Source of the DNA: Armatimonadota bacterium | GTDB taxonomy: Bacteria; Armatimonadota; UBA5829; DTJY01 | Assembly: GCA_017993055.1 (NCBI GenBank) | Contig: JAGONM010000004.1 | Coordinates: 62,001-126,000, forward strand | DNA length: 64,000 bases | Direction: 5' to 3' | Shown: piece by piece, positions 2,141-61,425 of the stretch | Position numbering within the stretch: position 1 is the first letter of the stretch | How the letters are laid out: each line of letters opens with the position of its first letter | Notes under the pieces: generated by a model | The model's input: only the letters and a program-made list of their open reading frames with translations | Told to the model about the DNA's origin: nothing | Databases searched by the model: none | Position numbers and translations under genes: made by a program

Positions 2141-2317
2141 GATCGCGCTCTGTTCCTCGCTTGGTTTTCCTGATAGTCATGTTTGCGTTACCCCCGTGTT
2201 TGGGTAGACTCCCTATGCTGAGTTCGAGTGTCACGAGTCTCAGGTTGCGGGTCCGATTGTCGAGCCGAAAGGCTGCTCAGAGTCAAGGAACTTGCGAAAA
2301 ACTGTTATTTTTACCAG

Positions 2318-53696: not shown

Positions 53697-54647
53697 TCAG
53701 TTGAGGATCGAGCCTCTTGACGTGATCACGGTCGCGCCGGCGCCTCCCAGGCTCACGGCCGCCGGCATTTGCCAGGGATACGGCAGGATGCGTCTCGGTC
53801 TCGCGGCGAACAGGCGCTCGAGCAGATCGTCGGCGGGATCGGCTGCCGGCCGCGATGCGACCGTCGTGCGAGGCATGTTCGGCGCGAGCTGAGACCGGTA
53901 TGACGCGTACAGCTTGGGCGTTTCGTACACGACCAGGAGGTTCGTCATGCTGCGGGCGGGCCTGACGATCGTACTGCCGCGGTAGTAGAGGGCGGTGGAA
54001 CTGCCGCCGTCGAGGTTCAGCGCGTCAACTGCGCCGAGGTGGCGCATGACCTTCGCCAGTTCGCTCAGGTATACGGGGGTGCTCGTCGTGACGAGTATCA
54101 GCTTGTTCGAGTCGGTCATGCCGACCGCCGTGCGCGGCTTCCGCCTGAAGATCTCCGGGTCCCGGAAGCCCTCCGACTTCGGCGCTACCGACGGCTTGCC
54201 GTTCCGTACAAGCGTGGGTCCGGTGCAGAGAACCGTCCGGCAGCCCGCCCAGTCGGAGGTTCGCCCTTCTCTCATGCTCTTGAAGTCCACTCGCCCTTGG
54301 TCCGTGACGCACAGGGCGACGCCTACAGATCCCGAGTGAACCAGCTTGCCCTCGATTACGATGTCTCCCGTGGGCCTGTAACTGCGGGTGCAGAAGAACG
54401 TACCGGTGATCGCCGCCGTAGGATTCAGCCTCTCGACCATCGCCCCGAATGTCTCGCTGGTGCCCGTGCCGTTCTTCGCAAGGGCGGGGGTGACGCGCAC
54501 GTTCGGAGATGCCATGTTGACGTAGACGACGTTGGCCGACACGCCGCTCCAGCGCACTTTGGTGTAGGAGACGTTCTCGCCGTAGGCCAGTTCAGCGGCA
54601 TACAGCAGGAAGGAAACGGCGAACAGCAGCGTCATCCTGGTTCTCAT
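53697..54647 (-). CDS. Secreted NAGPA-type phosphodiester glycosidase (DUF2233)
   Basis: A 316-residue secreted protein of the family of N-acetylglucosamine-1-phosphodiester alpha-N-acetylglucosaminidase (uncovering enzyme) and SpoIID-regulating YigE proteins. The signal peptide spans about residues 1-24. Family motifs are ITGTFFCTRSYRPTGDIV, RTAVGMTDSNKLILV and ALNLDGGSSTALYYRG. A C-terminal extension of about 75 residues is proline/arginine-rich. ATG 54647 follows GAGAGGTGCC; an ATG at 54668 is further from a ribosome site. It is followed by the DUF362 promoter on the same strand, so it is probably transcribed alone. It may cleave phosphodiester-linked sugars in the envelope. Confidence 0.82.
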   Translation of the reverse strand: MRTRMTLLFAVSFLLYAAELAYGENVSYTKVRWSGVSANVVYVNMASPNVRVTPALAKNGTGTSETFGAMVERLNPTAAITGTFFCTRSYRPTGDIVIEGKLVHSGSVGVALCVTDQGRVDFKSMREGRTSDWAGCRTVLCTGPTLVRNGKPSVAPKSEGFRDPEIFRRKPRTAVGMTDSNKLILVTTSTPVYLSELAKVMRHLGAVDALNLDGGSSTALYYRGSTIVRPARSMTNLLVVYETPKLYASYRSQLAPNMPRTTVASRPAADPADDLLERLFAARPRRILPYPWQMPAAVSLGGAGATVITSRGSILN

Positions 54648-54769
54648 GGCACCTCTCCTCATGTTCAAACTCTCACTGCTGAGCTTGCATGATCCGTGCC
54701 GAACCGCCTACGGTAAGTACCGGTTTTCTGGATGCGAGTGACGCCGGATCGGAACCGCCGGAACAAGCC

Positions 54770-54781
54770 GGTATTATTACC
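54770..54781. promoter_or_regulatory. GGTATTATTACC palindrome before amidase gene 1
   Basis: A perfect inverted repeat (GGTA-TTAT-TACC) 19 bases upstream of the -35 at 54801. The same 12 bases occur at 57740-57751 before the second amidase, inside a longer conserved block, so it is a likely regulator or UP-type site. Confidence 0.6.
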
Positions 54782-54800
54782 TGTTTTCCGTGTTTGGTGC

Positions 54801-54829
54801 TTGACAGCCCGAAAGCAGGCAAATATACT
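54801..54829 (+). promoter_or_regulatory. Strong promoter of amidase gene 1
   Basis: TTGACA (54801-54806), a 17-base spacer and TATACT (54824-54829), followed by GGGAAAGTA, which is identical in the second copy. Confidence 0.82.
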
Positions 54830-54835
54830 GGGAAA

Positions 54836-55188
54836 GTAGATTACTTGCCGTAGGCGTGGGTCGGATAGTCTGCAGAGGCAGGATGTGCAGAGACACTCGC
54901 GTCCGGGCGCATGATGGTTTGCGTTCTGCTTGCAGTCTCGTTCTCAGCGCAGTTTTGGAGCGACGAAGATGCGACGGCCGAACGTTTCGAAACGCGAGTT
55001 CGTCTTCCTGGCGGGCGAGCGAAGCTTGGAAGCCCGAATCCTCAATACGTCTTCGGACGTGCTGGGATCGGGCTTCTTGAGTTACCGACCCAGCATGGGA
55101 GAGGGGTGATGCGAACGGATCATATCTGCCCCGCAATCACCACCGGCTCATAAGGCCGGCAGCGACGATAAAAGGAGGTTGTTGAGAA
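54836..55188 (+). ncRNA. Long 5' leader of amidase gene 1
   Basis: About 350 bases with no large gene. It holds a short upstream ORF (54969-55109), a long hairpin GAAGCCCGA/TCGGGCTTC (55029-55037 with 55068-55076) with an inner ACGTC-TTCG-GACGT stem, a conserved GGGGTGATG block near 55103, and a small CCGGC/GCCGG hairpin (55143-55147 with 55155-55159) before the ribosome site AAAGGAGG. The same elements recur in the second leader. Confidence 0.6.
54969..55109 (+). CDS. Possible 46-residue leader ORF
   Basis: ATG 54969 follows GGAG eight bases upstream. It begins MRRPNVSKRE and ends SYRPSMGEG. The start region (GGAGCGACGAAGATG) is shared with the second leader, where the ORF begins MIRPYV. 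After the first six codons the two peptides are unrelated, so the conserved feature may be the RNA rather than the peptide. The ORF spans the large leader hairpin. Confidence 0.35.
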   Translation: MRRPNVSKREFVFLAGERSLEARILNTSSDVLGSGFLSYRPSMGEG

Positions 55189-57405
55189 ATGTTGAAGAAG
55201 TGCATTCTCTGTCTGTGCCTGATGTCTGTCGGCACATTGCTGGTGTCGGGTGCCTCTGCGCAGACTCCGGTGGACGCCGTCGCGAGTGCGGTCGCCAATA
55301 GCGGGGTCTTCCCGGAGGGCACGAGCGTAGTCGGTGTCACCTATGACGACACCAGCGCGGTAGTTGATCTGAGTGGCGAAGCCATCACTCCAAACTTCGG
55401 CGATGCTCTGTCGGATGCAATGGTTGAAGCCATCACGGATGCTCTGGCCGAGTTTGAGAACATCAAGGCCATCGAAGTCACTGTTGCCGGCAAGCCTCTG
55501 TGGGAGTACCTCCCACAGGCCGACGCGTCCGTCGCGTCTACCGCGCCTTCCCTTCTCAGAGCCATGTCCGTGCAGGCTCCGCTGGTCTCCGGTGTGGCAG
55601 CCCTAACGAGCGAGTTGGCGGGCAAAGGCGTCGGCCTATACCCGAGCCACGGCATGTATTGGCATCAGGGCTACAACCGCTGGTTCGTTTCTATGCGGAC
55701 CTTGTGTGGGCCGAATCCCAGTCCTCCTCTTCCCGCGGGGTGGGATTCGACTTGGCAGAGTGTCTACCAGCCGAGCAACTACTACTACTGGACAAAAGGC
55801 TTCCAGTGGGGATCGTTCTATGAGGACTATCGCACTCCGCAGGAGATCACCTTCCTAAAGGCTTACTGTGAGTCGTCAGGTGCGAACGTCATCGTGGGGA
55901 GAAACCTCGACAAGGCCGCGGGCGATTTCGACTACAATGCCTACGGGTACCCAAACTGCGCGTATCCGATTCCGAAGTGGGCTACGGCTGCAAAGTACTA
56001 CCTGCAGGATATCGGTGCGCCCGAGGCGGTCTGGAACGAGCCTTCTCTGACCGCTCAGACCGACAAGGATATCCGGGCGAGGCCGTACTGGACCAACTAT
56101 AACATGGTTGAGCCCGTATTTGGCGAAAAGAAGTGGCCGCTGACCGCCGCCGAGAAGGATATCGTCAAGAACAGGCCGGACGTCTGGGAGAACTGGGTAT
56201 CCATCCACTTGCACACCAATGCGGCTGGGGCCGGCACTGCTCGCGGCACCGAGACCTACTGGTATACCTCGACCTATCCGTGGCTGCAGTCGAAGGCTCA
56301 GGCTCTCGCCAAGTCGTTCAACGACGCCATGATCAACGCCATCAAGAACGAGTACGATGGTTTCTGGGCGGAAGCCATGTACCCAGTCGGCCCGAACCCG
56401 CCGGAGTGGCCCAGCGGCACCTATCGCGGATACGACCACGATGGGCCCAGCACTCCCAGTACCACTTCCGGATGGCAGGACCGCGGCGTCAAGACCAGCA
56501 ACTTCGGCGAGATCCGTGAGGCCATGGTACCCGCGGTCTTGACGGAGCTTCTCTTCCATGACGATTGGAAGTTCTACCCTGACCACGTGTTCGCAATGGA
56601 TCGAATCTTCCAGTCCACGGTTGCCTGGGGCATGTACGAAGGGATCTGCAACCACTTCGGAGTTACCCCGAAGGCAAGGCTGGCTGCGGCCGTCGAGAGC
56701 ATTGACGTCCCGCAGGTCGTTGCCCCGGGGCAGGCGTTCACCGGCGCGGTGACTGTCAAGAACCTCGGCCAGGCTTGGTGCTGGGGTGACAAGTGGGTGG
56801 ATATGATCTACTTCCCTTACACGGTATGGTACCTGGCCGCGGCTGCGGGCGATCCGTTCGTTCCGGCCGGTACGAAGCTCGCGGTGCCCAATGCTGCTCC
56901 CGTGTTCCCTGGCGACTCGCTCACGTTCAACCTGACGCTCACGGCGCCTGTCACAACCGGTCAGTACGCCACCGAATGGCAGATGCTGAAGGATGATGCA
57001 CGGGGCGGTGCGTTCGGCGATGTCGCGTCGGCGCGGATAGAGGTTGCGAACTCCGTCGGCAAGGTAACGGCAGGCGGATGGTTCGATCTTGTGGGCAAGA
57101 AGGCTACATGCGGTTTCGTCTGCGAGTATGTTGATGGCGCGGCCGCTCCCACCGGCAGCCTTAGCTATCAAGACCACGACCTGAAGATGAGCGTGCAGGC
57201 TACCGAGATGATCGCGCTGGGAATCGCTGGCAACCAGGCCTGGTTCTATGCGAACTGCACAATCAACGGTGAGCCGGGACACTGGTTCCGTGTGGATGTC
57301 ACCGACAACGGTGAGCCCGGTAGCGCTGATGTGTTCAAGATCACACTGGATACCGGCTACACTGCGGGTGGAACCCTCGGTGGAGGGAATGTCCAGATCC
57401 ACTAG
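55189..57405 (+). CDS. Secreted N-acetylmuramoyl-L-alanine amidase with GerMN-like and post-COAP-like domains
   Basis: A 738-residue secreted protein. The signal peptide (1-24) is followed by a GerMN-like domain (about 25-108, SAVVDLSGEA), an Amidase_3-type domain (about 140-490), an Ig-like/NBR1-like domain (about 500-620) and a post-COAP-like C-terminal domain (CGFVCEYVDGA, SYQDHDLKM, GEPGSADVFKITL). Zinc ligands expected for amidases are His154 (PSHG), Glu212 (FYEDY) and His340 (SIHLHTNAA), with catalytic Glu453 (LTELLFHD). It therefore probably cleaves peptidoglycan stem peptides from the sugar chain outside the cell. It is followed by a strong terminator and has a paralogue at 58125. Confidence 0.82.
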   Translation: MLKKCILCLCLMSVGTLLVSGASAQTPVDAVASAVANSGVFPEGTSVVGVTYDDTSAVVDLSGEAITPNFGDALSDAMVEAITDALAEFENIKAIEVTVAGKPLWEYLPQADASVASTAPSLLRAMSVQAPLVSGVAALTSELAGKGVGLYPSHGMYWHQGYNRWFVSMRTLCGPNPSPPLPAGWDSTWQSVYQPSNYYYWTKGFQWGSFYEDYRTPQEITFLKAYCESSGANVIVGRNLDKAAGDFDYNAYGYPNCAYPIPKWATAAKYYLQDIGAPEAVWNEPSLTAQTDKDIRARPYWTNYNMVEPVFGEKKWPLTAAEKDIVKNRPDVWENWVSIHLHTNAAGAGTARGTETYWYTSTYPWLQSKAQALAKSFNDAMINAIKNEYDGFWAEAMYPVGPNPPEWPSGTYRGYDHDGPSTPSTTSGWQDRGVKTSNFGEIREAMVPAVLTELLFHDDWKFYPDHVFAMDRIFQSTVAWGMYEGICNHFGVTPKARLAAAVESIDVPQVVAPGQAFTGAVTVKNLGQAWCWGDKWVDMIYFPYTVWYLAAAAGDPFVPAGTKLAVPNAAPVFPGDSLTFNLTLTAPVTTGQYATEWQMLKDDARGGAFGDVASARIEVANSVGKVTAGGWFDLVGKKATCGFVCEYVDGAAAPTGSLSYQDHDLKMSVQATEMIALGIAGNQAWFYANCTINGEPGHWFRVDVTDNGEPGSADVFKITLDTGYTAGGTLGGGNVQIH

Positions 57406-57418
57406 TGCCAGTGGCAGG

Positions 57419-57439
57419 CTCGAAGTTACCATCTTCGAG
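57419..57439 (+). other. Small hairpin just after amidase gene 1
   Basis: CTCGAAG (57419-57425) pairs with CTTCGAG (57433-57439), 7 bp, ahead of the main terminator. Confidence 0.5.
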
Positions 57440-57452
57440 TCAAATCGGCAGA

Positions 57453-57487
57453 CAGGCCCGGCGCGATGGCGCCGGGCCTGCTCTCTT
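57453..57487 (+). terminator. Intrinsic terminator of amidase gene 1
   Basis: CAGGCCCGGCGC (57453-57464) pairs with GCGCCGGGCCTG (57469-57480), loop GATG, followed by CTCTCTT. Its sequence is closely similar to the terminator at 61450. Confidence 0.88.
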
Positions 57488-57739
57488 ATAGCCCACCCCG
57501 CTCTTGGCCTACCTTTGTCCCAGTTCACTACGGCGGAAAGGGTTTTATGCCATGGGAGGGATCTAGCGTAGGCGACGGCAAGGAAGAAGCGAGGGGCTGC
57601 ATCGCCCCGCATCTTATGCCAAGTCTTCTCGTACTCACAATCTGATCGCTAAGCTCGCATGATTCGTGCCCAGACGCCTGCGGCGAGTATCGGTTGCGCA
57701 GGGGCGAGCTTTGCCGGATTGTCACCGCCGGAAGCAGCC

Positions 57740-57751
57740 GGTATTATTACC
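57740..57751. promoter_or_regulatory. GGTATTATTACC palindrome before amidase gene 2
   Basis: Identical to the site at 54770, placed 18 bases upstream of the -35 at 57770. The upstream block AGCTCGCATGATTCGTGCC and CCGCCGGAA are also conserved between the two genes. Confidence 0.6.
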
Positions 57752-57769
57752 AGTTTTTGCAGATACCAG

Positions 57770-57798
57770 TTGACAATGTCCGGACCCGCACTTATACT
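57770..57798 (+). promoter_or_regulatory. Strong promoter of amidase gene 2
   Basis: TTGACA (57770-57775), a 17-base spacer and TATACT (57793-57798), followed by GGGAAAGTA as in copy 1. Confidence 0.82.
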
Positions 57799-57804
57799 GG
57801 GAAA

Positions 57805-58124
57805 GTAACTACTCCGGCTTCAGAACTTGCCGGGATTTCCACTTCCCCGGCTTCTGAGGCGTTTGGCGTTGGCATCTGTCTGCAATCCGGATCTGGAGCG
57901 ACGGAGATGATACGTCCGTACGTGTTGAGTCGAAACCTACTCTGGATGCATATTGTTTCTCTGCAAAACCCCGACATTGCGCGTTTCTCGACGCACGCGT
58001 GTCGGGGTCTTGCGTTATAGTCCTTGGCATGAGAGGAATGGGGTGATGCATATCTGACCAATCTAACTCGATCCCGTACCCGGCGTTCACAGCCGGGACG
58101 ACATAAGGAAGGAGGATTTGGAAA
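57805..58124 (+). ncRNA. Long 5' leader of amidase gene 2
   Basis: About 320 bases. Hairpins include TCAGAA-ctt-GCCGGG paired with CCCGGC-TTCTGA (57820-57857), a long stem centred on ACCCCGACA/TGTCGGGGT (57968-57976 with 58000-58008) extended by an inner CGCGT/ACGCG and an outer GCAA/TTGC, the GGGGTGATGC block near 58040, and CCCGGC/GCCGGG (58079-58084 with 58092-58097) just before GGAGG. These parallel the first leader in order. Confidence 0.6.
57907..58020 (+). CDS. Possible 37-residue leader ORF
   Basis: ATG 57907 follows GGAGCGACGGAG, the same start context as the ORF in leader 1. It begins MIRPYVLSRN and ends THACRGLAL, and contains the whole long leader hairpin. Only the first codons resemble the other leader ORF, so coding is uncertain. 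Confidence 0.35.
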   Translation: MIRPYVLSRNLLWMHIVSLQNPDIARFSTHACRGLAL

Positions 58125-60680
58125 GTGATAAGGAAGCGATTTCTGTTTGTCGTGCTCGGACTCTGTTTGGCGATATGTTCGGCAGGGTCCGCGGTTCAGG
58201 CAGACCCCTATGATGCGGTCGAGAGCGTGGTGACCGACAGCGGCGTGTTCCCGGAAGGGACTTCGGTTGTGGATATCACGATTGTCGGCGGCAGCATCAT
58301 CGTGGAACTGAGCCTGGAGGCGATCCCTCCGGATTTCTGCGATACGATGTCGGATAGCATGGTCAAGGCCATTGTGGATGCTGTGTCGCCCTTCAAGGAA
58401 CTGACGGACATCGAGGTGCAGGTCGGCGGTCAGCCTCTGTGGGCCTATCTCACGAGATCGGAGCAGACCTATGAGGGTGACGTGCCCTCGGTTAGCCCCG
58501 TCGTCCGCAGACTTGCCATGGGCGCGCAGAACCCGCTGTCCGAGCCTAGCGTGGCCCCCATCTCCACTGAGTTGGCCGGGAAACTGGTCGTCCTTCATCC
58601 CAGCCACGGCTCATACGTGTACGGTACGCCCCCGTCGGTCTGGTATAGGGCCATGCGGACGTTCTGTGGGCCGAACCCGGTGACGAACTCGCCATACGCC
58701 CCGTACTCCTATCAGCCCAGTGACTACTACTACTGGACGAAGGGGCTCGGGTGGCCGATGTACTACGAGGACGATATGTCCCCGGAGACCATCAGGTTCC
58801 TCTATGCCTACTGTCAGTCTGGAGGCGCCGCAACCTACTGCTCCAGAAACCTTGACAAGAACGCCGGCGATTTCCCTGCCACGACCTATGGCTATCCGGC
58901 GCCAACGTTCCCGCTGCCGAAGTGGCAGACTGCCACCAAGTATGCCCTGCAGGATCGGGGCGGCATACCTTCCACGGTCTGGAACACCACGGATGTGACC
59001 GGAGAGAGCAACATAGACCTCCGGGCGAGGGCCTATTACACCAACTGGCTGATGCAGACCCTGGGCTACAGCTATACCAACACCGTCTCGTTCAGCCTGC
59101 ATAGCAACGCGGCCACAACAGGGACGCCCATACAGTCTCAGGCACGCGGTACTGAGACTTACTGGTACGCTACCCAGTATCCGACCGAACAGGCCCAGTC
59201 CCAGGCCTTCTGCACGGCGGTGGAGAACGGCGTCATCAGCGCCATTCGCACGCAGTATGACGGCTACTGGGCCGAGCCCATCTACGACAGCGCAAACTCA
59301 ACGATAACTCCGCCCGAGTGGACCGTCGCGTACGGCACCTATCGCGGCTACGTGCAGGACGGCGGGACTAACTATCGCTGGCAGGATCGCGGCGTGAAGA
59401 CAACCAACTTCGGTGAAATCCGGGAGTGCAAGTGCCCGGCCCAGTTGATGGAGCTTCTCTTCCACGACGACTGGAAGTTCTACCCCGATCAGGCATTCCA
59501 CCAGGACCCGATCTTCCGCTCCACCGTGGCTTGGGGTATGTACACCGGAATCTGCAACTTCTTCGGTGTGACTCCTAAGGCGAGGCTGGCCGCGACCGTC
59601 GAGTCGGTGAGTTTCCCGGCGGTAGTGCAGCCCGGTGAGACCTTCACGGGCACGGTCACTATGCGAAACCTCGGTCAGGCATGGTGCTGGGGAATGAAGC
59701 AGGTCGGTACCGTCTACGGGCCCTACAACGTGTGGGTGCTGAAGGGGACCAACGCAGACCAGTTTGGAGGCGCCGGCGTCAAGGTTCAGCTCGCGAACGA
59801 CGGCTACTACTATCCGGGTGACACCGCGACCTTCACTGTGAGTCTCACTGCGCCGGCGACCGGCGGCTACTACAACACGAGTTGGAGAATGCGCAAGGAC
59901 GACGGGAAGGGCGGAGACTTCGGCAGCACGGCCACCGCCGTGATCGGCGTCGATGCCCCGTGGTTCACGGCCACCCAGAACGCGGCCAACGTGAAGACCG
60001 GCAGTTCCGCGGCGACCGCCCCTGTTACGCTTCGCGGCGACGTGCTCATCACCGTGATGCCGAGCCCCGCGATCGGCTTCGGGGCGAACGACCCGGTTCA
60101 GATCTCCGTGGACGGCGTGGCGACCGGCGCCGTGACGGAGTCTGGCGGCAACTACGTCTGCACGGCAACGGTAGATGGTGCGACCGCCAACGGTGCGCAT
60201 CAGATCACCGTAACCGTTACTGAGGCCGATGACTCTGTGACCGTTCTGAACGACTGGATCTATGTCAACAAGAACGAGATCAACGGCACGGTCACTCTGC
60301 CCGGCTTCGTAGGAGCTTCCAGAGACGTTGCGTTCTCGATTGACGGCGCAGCGCCGATCACCAGGTCCCTGTCGTTCGCCGGCGGCGTTGCTGGCTACAA
60401 GCTGGTGAACCTGCCCGACACGGTGAGCACATTGAGCGCCAAGACCGCGTGGACGCTCAGGCAGAACAAAGCCGCTTCGCTGGTTGATGCGGTGGACTTT
60501 GTTCTCGCAGGTGGCGACATCGACGGCGGCAACTCTGTCAACATAGCGGACTACAACCTCCTCAAGTCTAGTTGGTTCCAGGCGGCTCCCGCGGCCGACA
60601 TCAGTGGCGATGGGGTAGTCAACGGTGCGGACTACAACATCATGAAGGCCAACTGGTTCACCGCGGGCGATCCTCAGTAG
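58125..60680 (+). CDS. Secreted amidase paralogue with dockerin-like C terminus
   Basis: An 851-residue secreted protein. Signal peptide (1-26), GerMN-like domain (about 27-110), Amidase_3-type domain (about 145-480) and Ig-like domain parallel the gene at 55189. Zinc-site residues match: His161 (PSHG), Glu215 (YYEDD), His326 (FSLHSNAA) and catalytic Glu443 (MELLFHDD). Two further beta-rich units (about 605-790) precede two dockerin type I-like repeats: GDIDGGNSVNIADYNLL and DISGDGVVNGADYNIM. Dockerins bind calcium and cohesins, suggesting anchoring in a surface complex. The start is GTG at 58125, with GGAGG nine bases upstream. Confidence 0.82.
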   Translation: MIRKRFLFVVLGLCLAICSAGSAVQADPYDAVESVVTDSGVFPEGTSVVDITIVGGSIIVELSLEAIPPDFCDTMSDSMVKAIVDAVSPFKELTDIEVQVGGQPLWAYLTRSEQTYEGDVPSVSPVVRRLAMGAQNPLSEPSVAPISTELAGKLVVLHPSHGSYVYGTPPSVWYRAMRTFCGPNPVTNSPYAPYSYQPSDYYYWTKGLGWPMYYEDDMSPETIRFLYAYCQSGGAATYCSRNLDKNAGDFPATTYGYPAPTFPLPKWQTATKYALQDRGGIPSTVWNTTDVTGESNIDLRARAYYTNWLMQTLGYSYTNTVSFSLHSNAATTGTPIQSQARGTETYWYATQYPTEQAQSQAFCTAVENGVISAIRTQYDGYWAEPIYDSANSTITPPEWTVAYGTYRGYVQDGGTNYRWQDRGVKTTNFGEIRECKCPAQLMELLFHDDWKFYPDQAFHQDPIFRSTVAWGMYTGICNFFGVTPKARLAATVESVSFPAVVQPGETFTGTVTMRNLGQAWCWGMKQVGTVYGPYNVWVLKGTNADQFGGAGVKVQLANDGYYYPGDTATFTVSLTAPATGGYYNTSWRMRKDDGKGGDFGSTATAVIGVDAPWFTATQNAANVKTGSSAATAPVTLRGDVLITVMPSPAIGFGANDPVQISVDGVATGAVTESGGNYVCTATVDGATANGAHQITVTVTEADDSVTVLNDWIYVNKNEINGTVTLPGFVGASRDVAFSIDGAAPITRSLSFAGGVAGYKLVNLPDTVSTLSAKTAWTLRQNKAASLVDAVDFVLAGGDIDGGNSVNIADYNLLKSSWFQAAPAADISGDGVVNGADYNIMKANWFTAGDPQ

Positions 60681-60804: not shown

Positions 60805-61425
60805 ATGAGAAGACCAATTGTCTTCGCGGCGATCATAGCCGTCTTGGCGCTCATGGTCTCTGTTGCCCAGGCTGCCGACGCGACGTGGAACTTCAGCACG
60901 TGGGCGAATCCGGCATCGCCTGAGGTGTACCAGAACTTCTACGGCGTGCCTTCGGCTGTGATCAACGTGGACCCCCTATGGGGTACCGGTTGGTATGACA
61001 CCATGCCCGCCGTGTACGGGAGCGCCCAGGGCTGGTGGGATATCGCCACGGGCTCCATCGTTCTGAGCATTCCCGATATGGACAACGCCCCTCCGGAATC
61101 GTGGAAGGAGCTTGTCGTGAAGATCACCTATTGGGATGATATCAGCAAGGCTCCGACGATCCAGGCATCGCCGCAGTTTACGGTGCTTGGCAAGACGACG
61201 GTGCTGGCCGAAGCTGGCCCCGTGGGCGGCGGCTGGTATACCGATACCTGGGTGCTGAATGTCGCGCCGATCCCGAGCATGGCGGTGATCACGATCCTCG
61301 GCGACGCGGACTGGGGATCGCAGATTGACAGGATAAACGTCATCCCCGAGCCGAGCGGCGTTCTGGCGCTCTTCAGCGGCATGGCCGGCCTCACGGGTCT
61401 GATTCTCCGCCGAAGACGCGCATAG
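60805..61425 (+). CDS. PEP-CTERM sorted surface protein
   Basis: A 206-residue exported protein. It has a Sec signal peptide (about 1-23) and a classic PEP-CTERM tail: VIPEPSGVLALFSG, a hydrophobic segment (MAGLTGLIL) and RRRRA. PEP-CTERM tails are cut by exosortase during surface sorting; no exosortase gene lies in this window. The mature part is beta-rich (WNFSTWANPASPEVY, WWDIATGSIVLSIPD) and of unknown function. It lies 124 bases after the dockerin-tailed amidase and shares its terminator, suggesting joint expression. GGAAAGGAGAGAAGG precedes the ATG. Confidence 0.85.
   Translation: MRRPIVFAAIIAVLALMVSVAQAADATWNFSTWANPASPEVYQNFYGVPSAVINVDPLWGTGWYDTMPAVYGSAQGWWDIATGSIVLSIPDMDNAPPESWKELVVKITYWDDISKAPTIQASPQFTVLGKTTVLAEAGPVGGGWYTDTWVLNVAPIPSMAVITILGDADWGSQIDRINVIPEPSGVLALFSGMAGLTGLILRRRRA

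Follow-up and report, generated by a model that had tools for sequence, protein, structure and literature searches.

Stand-alone LuxR/GerE-type regulators, such as Bacillus GerE (PDB 1fse) and the cyanobacterial PedR (NF052366), are characterized by a lone GerE helix-turn-helix (HTH) domain of about 85 amino acids (aa), while the XrtB/PEP-CTERM-associated LuxR-type protein EpsA (TIGR03020) ties a GerE domain to exopolysaccharide and PEP-CTERM genes. A study on RpoN-dependent control of PEP-CTERM genes (PMC9850573) also places such surface genes under dedicated control. At the RNA level, the ydaO/yuaA cyclic di-AMP (c-di-AMP) riboswitch and other cell-wall-hydrolase leaders offer precedence for a long leader before a cell-wall amidase gene. 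Here we consider a 64,000-nucleotide stretch (hereinafter the window) of an Armatimonadota draft genome of 3.7 Mb (G000:C4:62001-126000), in which two paralogous amidase genes are preceded by matching 5′ regions. Comparing it with a set of 28 genomes of the same bacterial class (labelled G000 upward, G000 being the source genome), we posit, with a probability of about 0.7, that both genes are targets of an autoregulated LuxR-type surface/secretion regulon. The arrangement is as follows:

54768..54783, forward strand: operator copy 1, CCGGTATTATTACCTG, then TTTT
54801..54829, forward strand: sigma70-type promoter TTGACA-17-TATACT, copy 1, with the operator centre near −60
55189..57405, forward strand: amidase gene 1, GerMN + Amidase_3 + immunoglobulin-like (Ig-like) domains, secreted, 738 aa
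57738..57753, forward strand: operator copy 2, CCGGTATTATTACCAG, then TTTTT
57770..57798, forward strand: sigma70-type promoter TTGACA-17-TATACT, copy 2
58125..60680, forward strand: amidase gene 2, GerMN + Amidase_3 + Ig-like domains, secreted, 851 aa

With up to one mismatch allowed, the source genome has 24 occurrences of the operator core, GGTATTATTACC, as compared to a single control match, and an alignment of these 24 sites extends the core to CNGGTA-N4-TACCNG, followed by a T-tract (TTTT) toward the promoter, a form we predict to be a LuxR-type target (CCGGTATTATTACCAGTTTTT). Thus extended, and again with at most one mismatch, it yields 41 matches in the source genome, a few places being counted on both strands, versus none in the control. 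A good TTGACA/TATAAT promoter (penalty at most 3.5) lies within 45 bp of 17 of the 24 sites as compared to 3.5% of random positions. In both amidase 5′ regions TTGACA-17-TATACT ranks as the best promoter, from which we infer transcription start sites near 54836 and 57805. The operator–promoter distances cluster at 2, 17–19 and 28–30 bp, and at 38 bp in other genomes; by these distances the operator is in helical phase with the downstream promoters. Whole-helical-turn spacing is typical of contact-dependent activators and is established for those of the CRP type. The genes downstream code for PEP-CTERM proteins (several above the TIGR02595/PF07589 cut-off, the rest called by a visible PEP..RRRR tail), GerMN-amidases, GHL10 glycosyl hydrolases, an alginate-lyase/heparinase-like protein and further proteins with a signal peptide. 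One weaker site stands ahead of an exopolysaccharide export gene of the XrtA/PEP-CTERM type. A literature search on the operator motif and on PEP-CTERM regulation in Armatimonadetes returned nothing on point. The window holds a third operator-like site with one mismatch (2298-2317, reverse strand), which has a TTGACT about 18 bp downstream and no obvious gene. One operator-linked gene (L056 1614-2423) codes for an RtcR-like sensor domain with a Fis-type HTH, without an AAA+ match.

The operator is probably read by a small single-domain LuxR-type regulator. At about 16 kb on the contig of the window (G000:C4), two divergent genes each code for a lone GerE/LuxR-type HTH protein (a single GerE domain of about 85 aa, Pfam GerE E about 1e-20), and between them lie two operator copies (L193 1455-1470 and 1505-1520), one of which stands about 17 bp ahead of a TTGACA/TAAAAT promoter. 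The same layout (CTGGTAATTTTACCAGTTTT, TTGACA, TAAAAT) precedes a LuxR-type paralogue in G002 and G003, which makes three genomes, with G000, where the operator lies at the LuxR-type gene's own promoter; in G008 it is found just 5′ of that genome's own LuxR-type copy. Across the class, the single-domain protein is present in 23 of the 28 genomes, which contain 350 operator matches versus 40 in the control, while the five genomes without it contain 2 versus 9 (Mann–Whitney p 3e-4 for the co-occurrence in 28 genomes). G001, from the window's own family, likewise shows neither the protein nor operator enrichment. Set beside the lux-box dyad CT-N12-AG, the operator keeps the C and G ends in 16/17 cases, the second base being C, T or A.

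Several observations weigh against this assignment. Of the five genomes with neither the protein nor operator enrichment, four come from one family (f5), three of them from one genus, making phylogenetic confounding possible, although G001 is from the window's own family; genomes code for several LuxR-type paralogues and hence several candidate binders, the MATTL.. and MTAMT.. paralogues among them; in most other genomes the closest group of LuxR-type orthologues has no operator ahead of it; and the strict CT-N12-AG form is only partly retained, as its second base varies. In terms of described families, the candidate differs from GerE and PedR in that co-occurrence and apparent autoregulation link it to surface/PEP-CTERM genes and to the CNGGTA-N4-TACCNG dyad, and it scores far below the curated cut-offs of PedR and others. 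It also falls outside EpsA: the TIGR03020 model spans 247 positions with an N-terminal part, whereas the protein here is only the HTH and reaches 52.9 bits as compared to the 170-bit cut-off. The LuxR-type genes themselves have a conserved block in the 5′ untranslated region (UTR), about 60 nt before the start codon and roughly of the form TGGAA-N(10-12)-GAGCGGCGA[GA]CAGGGAAAGGAG, which is class-wide, being present in all 22 genomes aligned (L201-L222; e.g., L193 1630-1680); it had no match in an Rfam search.

In the regulon we propose, a dimeric activator, most likely an autoregulated single-domain LuxR/GerE-type protein, would bind CNGGTA-N4-TACCNG(TTTT) at about −60 and recruit RNA polymerase to the sigma70-type promoter; in the other targets the operator sits near −70 or −80 or directly adjoins the −35 element. 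Transcription would then yield a 320–360 nt 5′ UTR that is folded and constrained and has a GC hairpin at its end, ahead of the ribosome-binding site. This UTR probably adjusts how well the mRNAs of these two amidases, and no others, are translated or how stable they are, which would make it a leader particular to the lineage and not a widespread riboswitch. An apparent riboswitch lead would thereby turn into a concrete regulon in the barely studied phylum Armatimonadota, with one operator, one candidate regulator and, across a class, dozens of targets that are secreted, PEP-CTERM or cell-wall proteins. The control of surface proteins in these bacteria would become open to direct testing in vitro, and the part of the leader still worth RNA work would be delimited.

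A preliminary description had treated the two 5′ regions as long structured leaders with a common ordered set of elements, and each of these elements is indeed found in both copies at corresponding positions (copy 1 and copy 2, respectively):

54687 and 57657: GCATGAT[CT]CGTGCC
54755 and 57725: CCGCCGGAA
54770 and 57740: GGTATTATTACC, the operator core
54801 and 57770: TTGACA-17-TATACT
54830 and 57799: GGGAAAGTA
54957 and 57895: GGAGCGACG[AG]AGATG
55094 and 58028: CATG[AG]GAG
55103 and 58040: GGGGTGATGC
55122 and 58050: ATATCTG

The copy 1 set begins at 54687, slightly ahead of the start it had been given, and the palindrome reported there is present as an imperfect dyad, GGTA-N4-TACC. More consequentially, about half of the supposed leader is not RNA, because a sigma54-like block, the operator and the −35/−10 promoter are located 5′ of the start site. 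The transcribed part, about 320–360 nt long, contains the following, where z compares the minimum free energy (MFE) with shuffles:

54836..55188, forward strand: 5′ UTR of gene 1, predicted start, MFE z −4.0, islands in common with copy 2
54957..54971, forward strand: leader island 1, copy 1, GGAGCGACGAAGATG, a Shine–Dalgarno (SD)-like GGAG then ATG
55029..55076, forward strand: long hairpin, copy 1, without a U-tract, local z −4.2
55094..55128, forward strand: leader island 2, copy 1, CATGGGAG..GGGGTGATGC..ATATCTG
55143..55159, forward strand: GC hairpin with a 7-nt loop before the ribosome-binding site, copy 1
57805..58124, forward strand: 5′ UTR of gene 2, predicted start, MFE z −2.4
57895..57909, forward strand: leader island 1, copy 2, GGAGCGACGGAGATG
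57963..58013, forward strand: long hairpin, copy 2, without a U-tract, local z −5.5
58028..58056, forward strand: leader island 2, copy 2, CATGAGAG..GGGGTGATGCATATCTG
58079..58097, forward strand: GC hairpin with a 7-nt loop before the ribosome-binding site, copy 2

Between the copies, the 30-base blocks 5′ of and across the operator are 60–83% identical and the leader islands, of 10–15 nearly identical bases, 77–100% identical, as compared to 34% identity at four-fold synonymous sites of the two genes (same amino acid, four-fold codon in both). As the synonymous sites are saturated, the common islands reflect constraint and not recent duplication, in keeping with the earlier impression that they look functional; by the same measure, the duplication of the amidase genes is old. 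The leader interiors align with a Smith–Waterman score of 29 versus a shuffle maximum of 15, and blastn of each leader against its own genome gives significant matches for the promoter part only. Orthologues in G002, G003 and G004 have a promoter and an operator or operator-like site, and their leaders are long and end in a GC hairpin that precedes GGAGG. Between G002 and G003, substitutions amount to 2.6% in the upstream/promoter part, 9.2% in the leader and 17.5% at four-fold sites; thus, the leader is constrained, albeit less than the promoter.

Could these leaders be a new ligand- or protein-sensing cis-regulatory RNA acting on amidase translation, with the islands as sensor and the GC hairpin as expression platform? 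We consider this doubtful. The five leaders, those of the two amidase copies and of the three orthologues, are structured for the most part: among them they have MFE z values of −4.0, −2.4, −2.4, −0.7 and −3.4, and the fold beats shuffles in both amidase copies, in G003 and in G004, though not in G002. The terminal hairpin is found in all five, the islands are retained despite saturated divergence, and substitution in the orthologous leaders runs at roughly half the pace of synonymous change. A strong mid-leader hairpin stands in each of copies 1 and 2 and G004, its sequence being unrelated between them. However, the leaders of orthologues from other genera align to copies 1 and 2 at about shuffle level, and the alifold consensus of the five is negligible, with 4 pairs at −0.6 kcal/mol. 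The set for judging covariation amounts to four effective, poorly alignable sequences. Rfam, including ydaO (RF00379), gives no leader match at gathering score, and leader-only scans to E 5 return chance matches; accordingly, c-di-AMP/ydaO sensing is excluded at Rfam's sensitivity, agreeing with the earlier failure to recognize a ydaO core and setting these leaders apart from ydaO/yuaA. The covariance search then suggested, run with a model of the 3′ leader of copies 1 and 2 (R1), returns just the two source copies from the 28 genomes; the G002 orthologue reaches 11.9 bits (E 0.1), and those of G003 and G004 are not found. No terminator/antiterminator pair or intrinsic terminator is detected in the leaders, the long hairpin lacks a U-tract and the sole intrinsic terminator in the scan (57453-57480) follows gene 1; the scan thus argues against transcription attenuation. 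Leaders of other regulon genes have no evident sequence in common with those of the amidases, and a literature search on Armatimonadetes riboswitches returned nothing on point. What stands of the proposed cis-regulatory RNA is therefore a pair of long 5′ UTRs, mostly folded below shuffles; what is not supported is an RNA family, for which no recurrence at independent loci or genomes was found among the 28. Conservation is strongest in promoter DNA that is not transcribed and that contains an operator found genome-wide. The leader is folded and constrained, but it is only possibly a new RNA regulator.

The islands also resemble a Shine–Dalgarno sequence with a start codon, and short upstream open reading frames (uORFs) are therefore a live, if unlikely, alternative, in which GGAG-N8-ATG (54957/57895) and the GTG/ATG at GGGGTGATGC would start peptides mediating attenuation or translational coupling. 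Consistent with this are the SD-like spacing at island 1, a [GTG]ATG that is soon followed by a stop codon at island 2 of both amidase copies, G002 and G003 (MRTDHICPAITTGS, MHI, MRPKK, MRQKNN), and the in-frame 9-nt gap from GGGGTGATGC to ATATCTG. The peptides, however, are not conserved, island 2 of G004 contains no ATG and the SD spacing is poor in G002 and G003. We rejected a coding reading of the G002/G003 leader because changes in its longest candidate ORF are mostly non-synonymous (hand count). It is similarly improbable, though conceivable, that a second level of control is stacked on the LuxR-type regulon, in which a structured leader particular to the lineage, or a uORF attenuator, would sense a cell-wall or translational cue, with the terminal GC hairpin gating the ribosome-binding site.

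As for the binder, TGGTA-N4-TACCA has the 5-4-5 geometry of FNR sites and is placed like class I/II sites, and the operator–promoter spacing behaviour too would suit a CRP/FNR-type protein. Against this, a single protein exceeds the HTH_Crp_2 cut-off in the source genome; it adjoins siroheme-decarboxylase-like genes, suggesting a heme context, and has an E..SR recognition helix, the FNR-type pattern for TTGAT. We rejected it on account of this helix and context and regard a CRP/FNR-type site as very unlikely. This poor candidacy, the co-occurrence and the operator at the regulator's own promoter are together the grounds on which we propose an autoregulated single-domain LuxR-type activator. 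Finally, although the two genes and their intergenic region resemble a tandem duplication, the view that all likeness between the 5′ regions is a remnant of a recent one is refuted by four-fold sites as divergent as 34% identity beside islands at 77–100%, and is hardly credible barring gene conversion confined to the 5′ regions.

Upstream of the operators, the conserved block and its surroundings comprise the following:

53697-54668, reverse strand: divergent phosphodiester-glycosidase (NAGPA) gene, start at 54644..54668
54686..54701, reverse strand: sigma54-like −24/−12 element, copy 1, CGGCACGGATCATGCA, facing the NAGPA gene
57656..57671, reverse strand: sigma54-like element, copy 2, GGGCACGAATCATGCG, with no gene downstream

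GCATGAT[CT]CGTGCC is the reverse complement of GGCACG[AG]ATCATGC, which has the sigma54-like −24/−12 form, and the far-upstream block is thus a predicted divergent sigma54-like promoter. The GG at −24 and GC at −12 are present in both copies, with 2–3 mismatches and at the same position; in copy 1 these invariants are intact, with 2 mismatches to TGGCACGN4TTGCA. In both copies the element lies 84 bp 5′ of the operator and is directed away from the amidases. Sites of the type GCAAGA[AT]TCGTGCC (GGCACGAATCTTGC reversed) number 56 genome-wide versus 12 in the control. The GCATGATTCGTGCC block had been considered as a second operator and was dropped in favor of the reversed sigma54-like element. 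Unlike the RpoN-dependent PEP-CTERM control described in PMC9850573, the genes here have sigma70-type promoters with a proximal operator, the sigma54-like element being divergent only. The gene-less copy 2 element would fire antisense toward the 3′ end of gene 1.

The NAGPA gene (Pfam NAGPA E 9e-33) likelier starts at an ATG at about 54648, ahead of which is an SD-like GGAGAGG. The two amidases share 49% aa identity, and the C-terminus of amidase 2 (residues 797–842) has a weak dockerin type I match below cut-off. Immediately 3′ of amidase gene 2, 60805-61425 (forward strand) codes for a secreted protein with a PEP-CTERM-like tail by eye, ending in PEPSGVLALFSGMAGLTGLILRRRRA; a family search with it gave no match. 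The sequence GCTTGATTCGTGAC recurs at contig ends of the source genome (G000 C28, C40 and C78, near base 50), suggesting a repeat.

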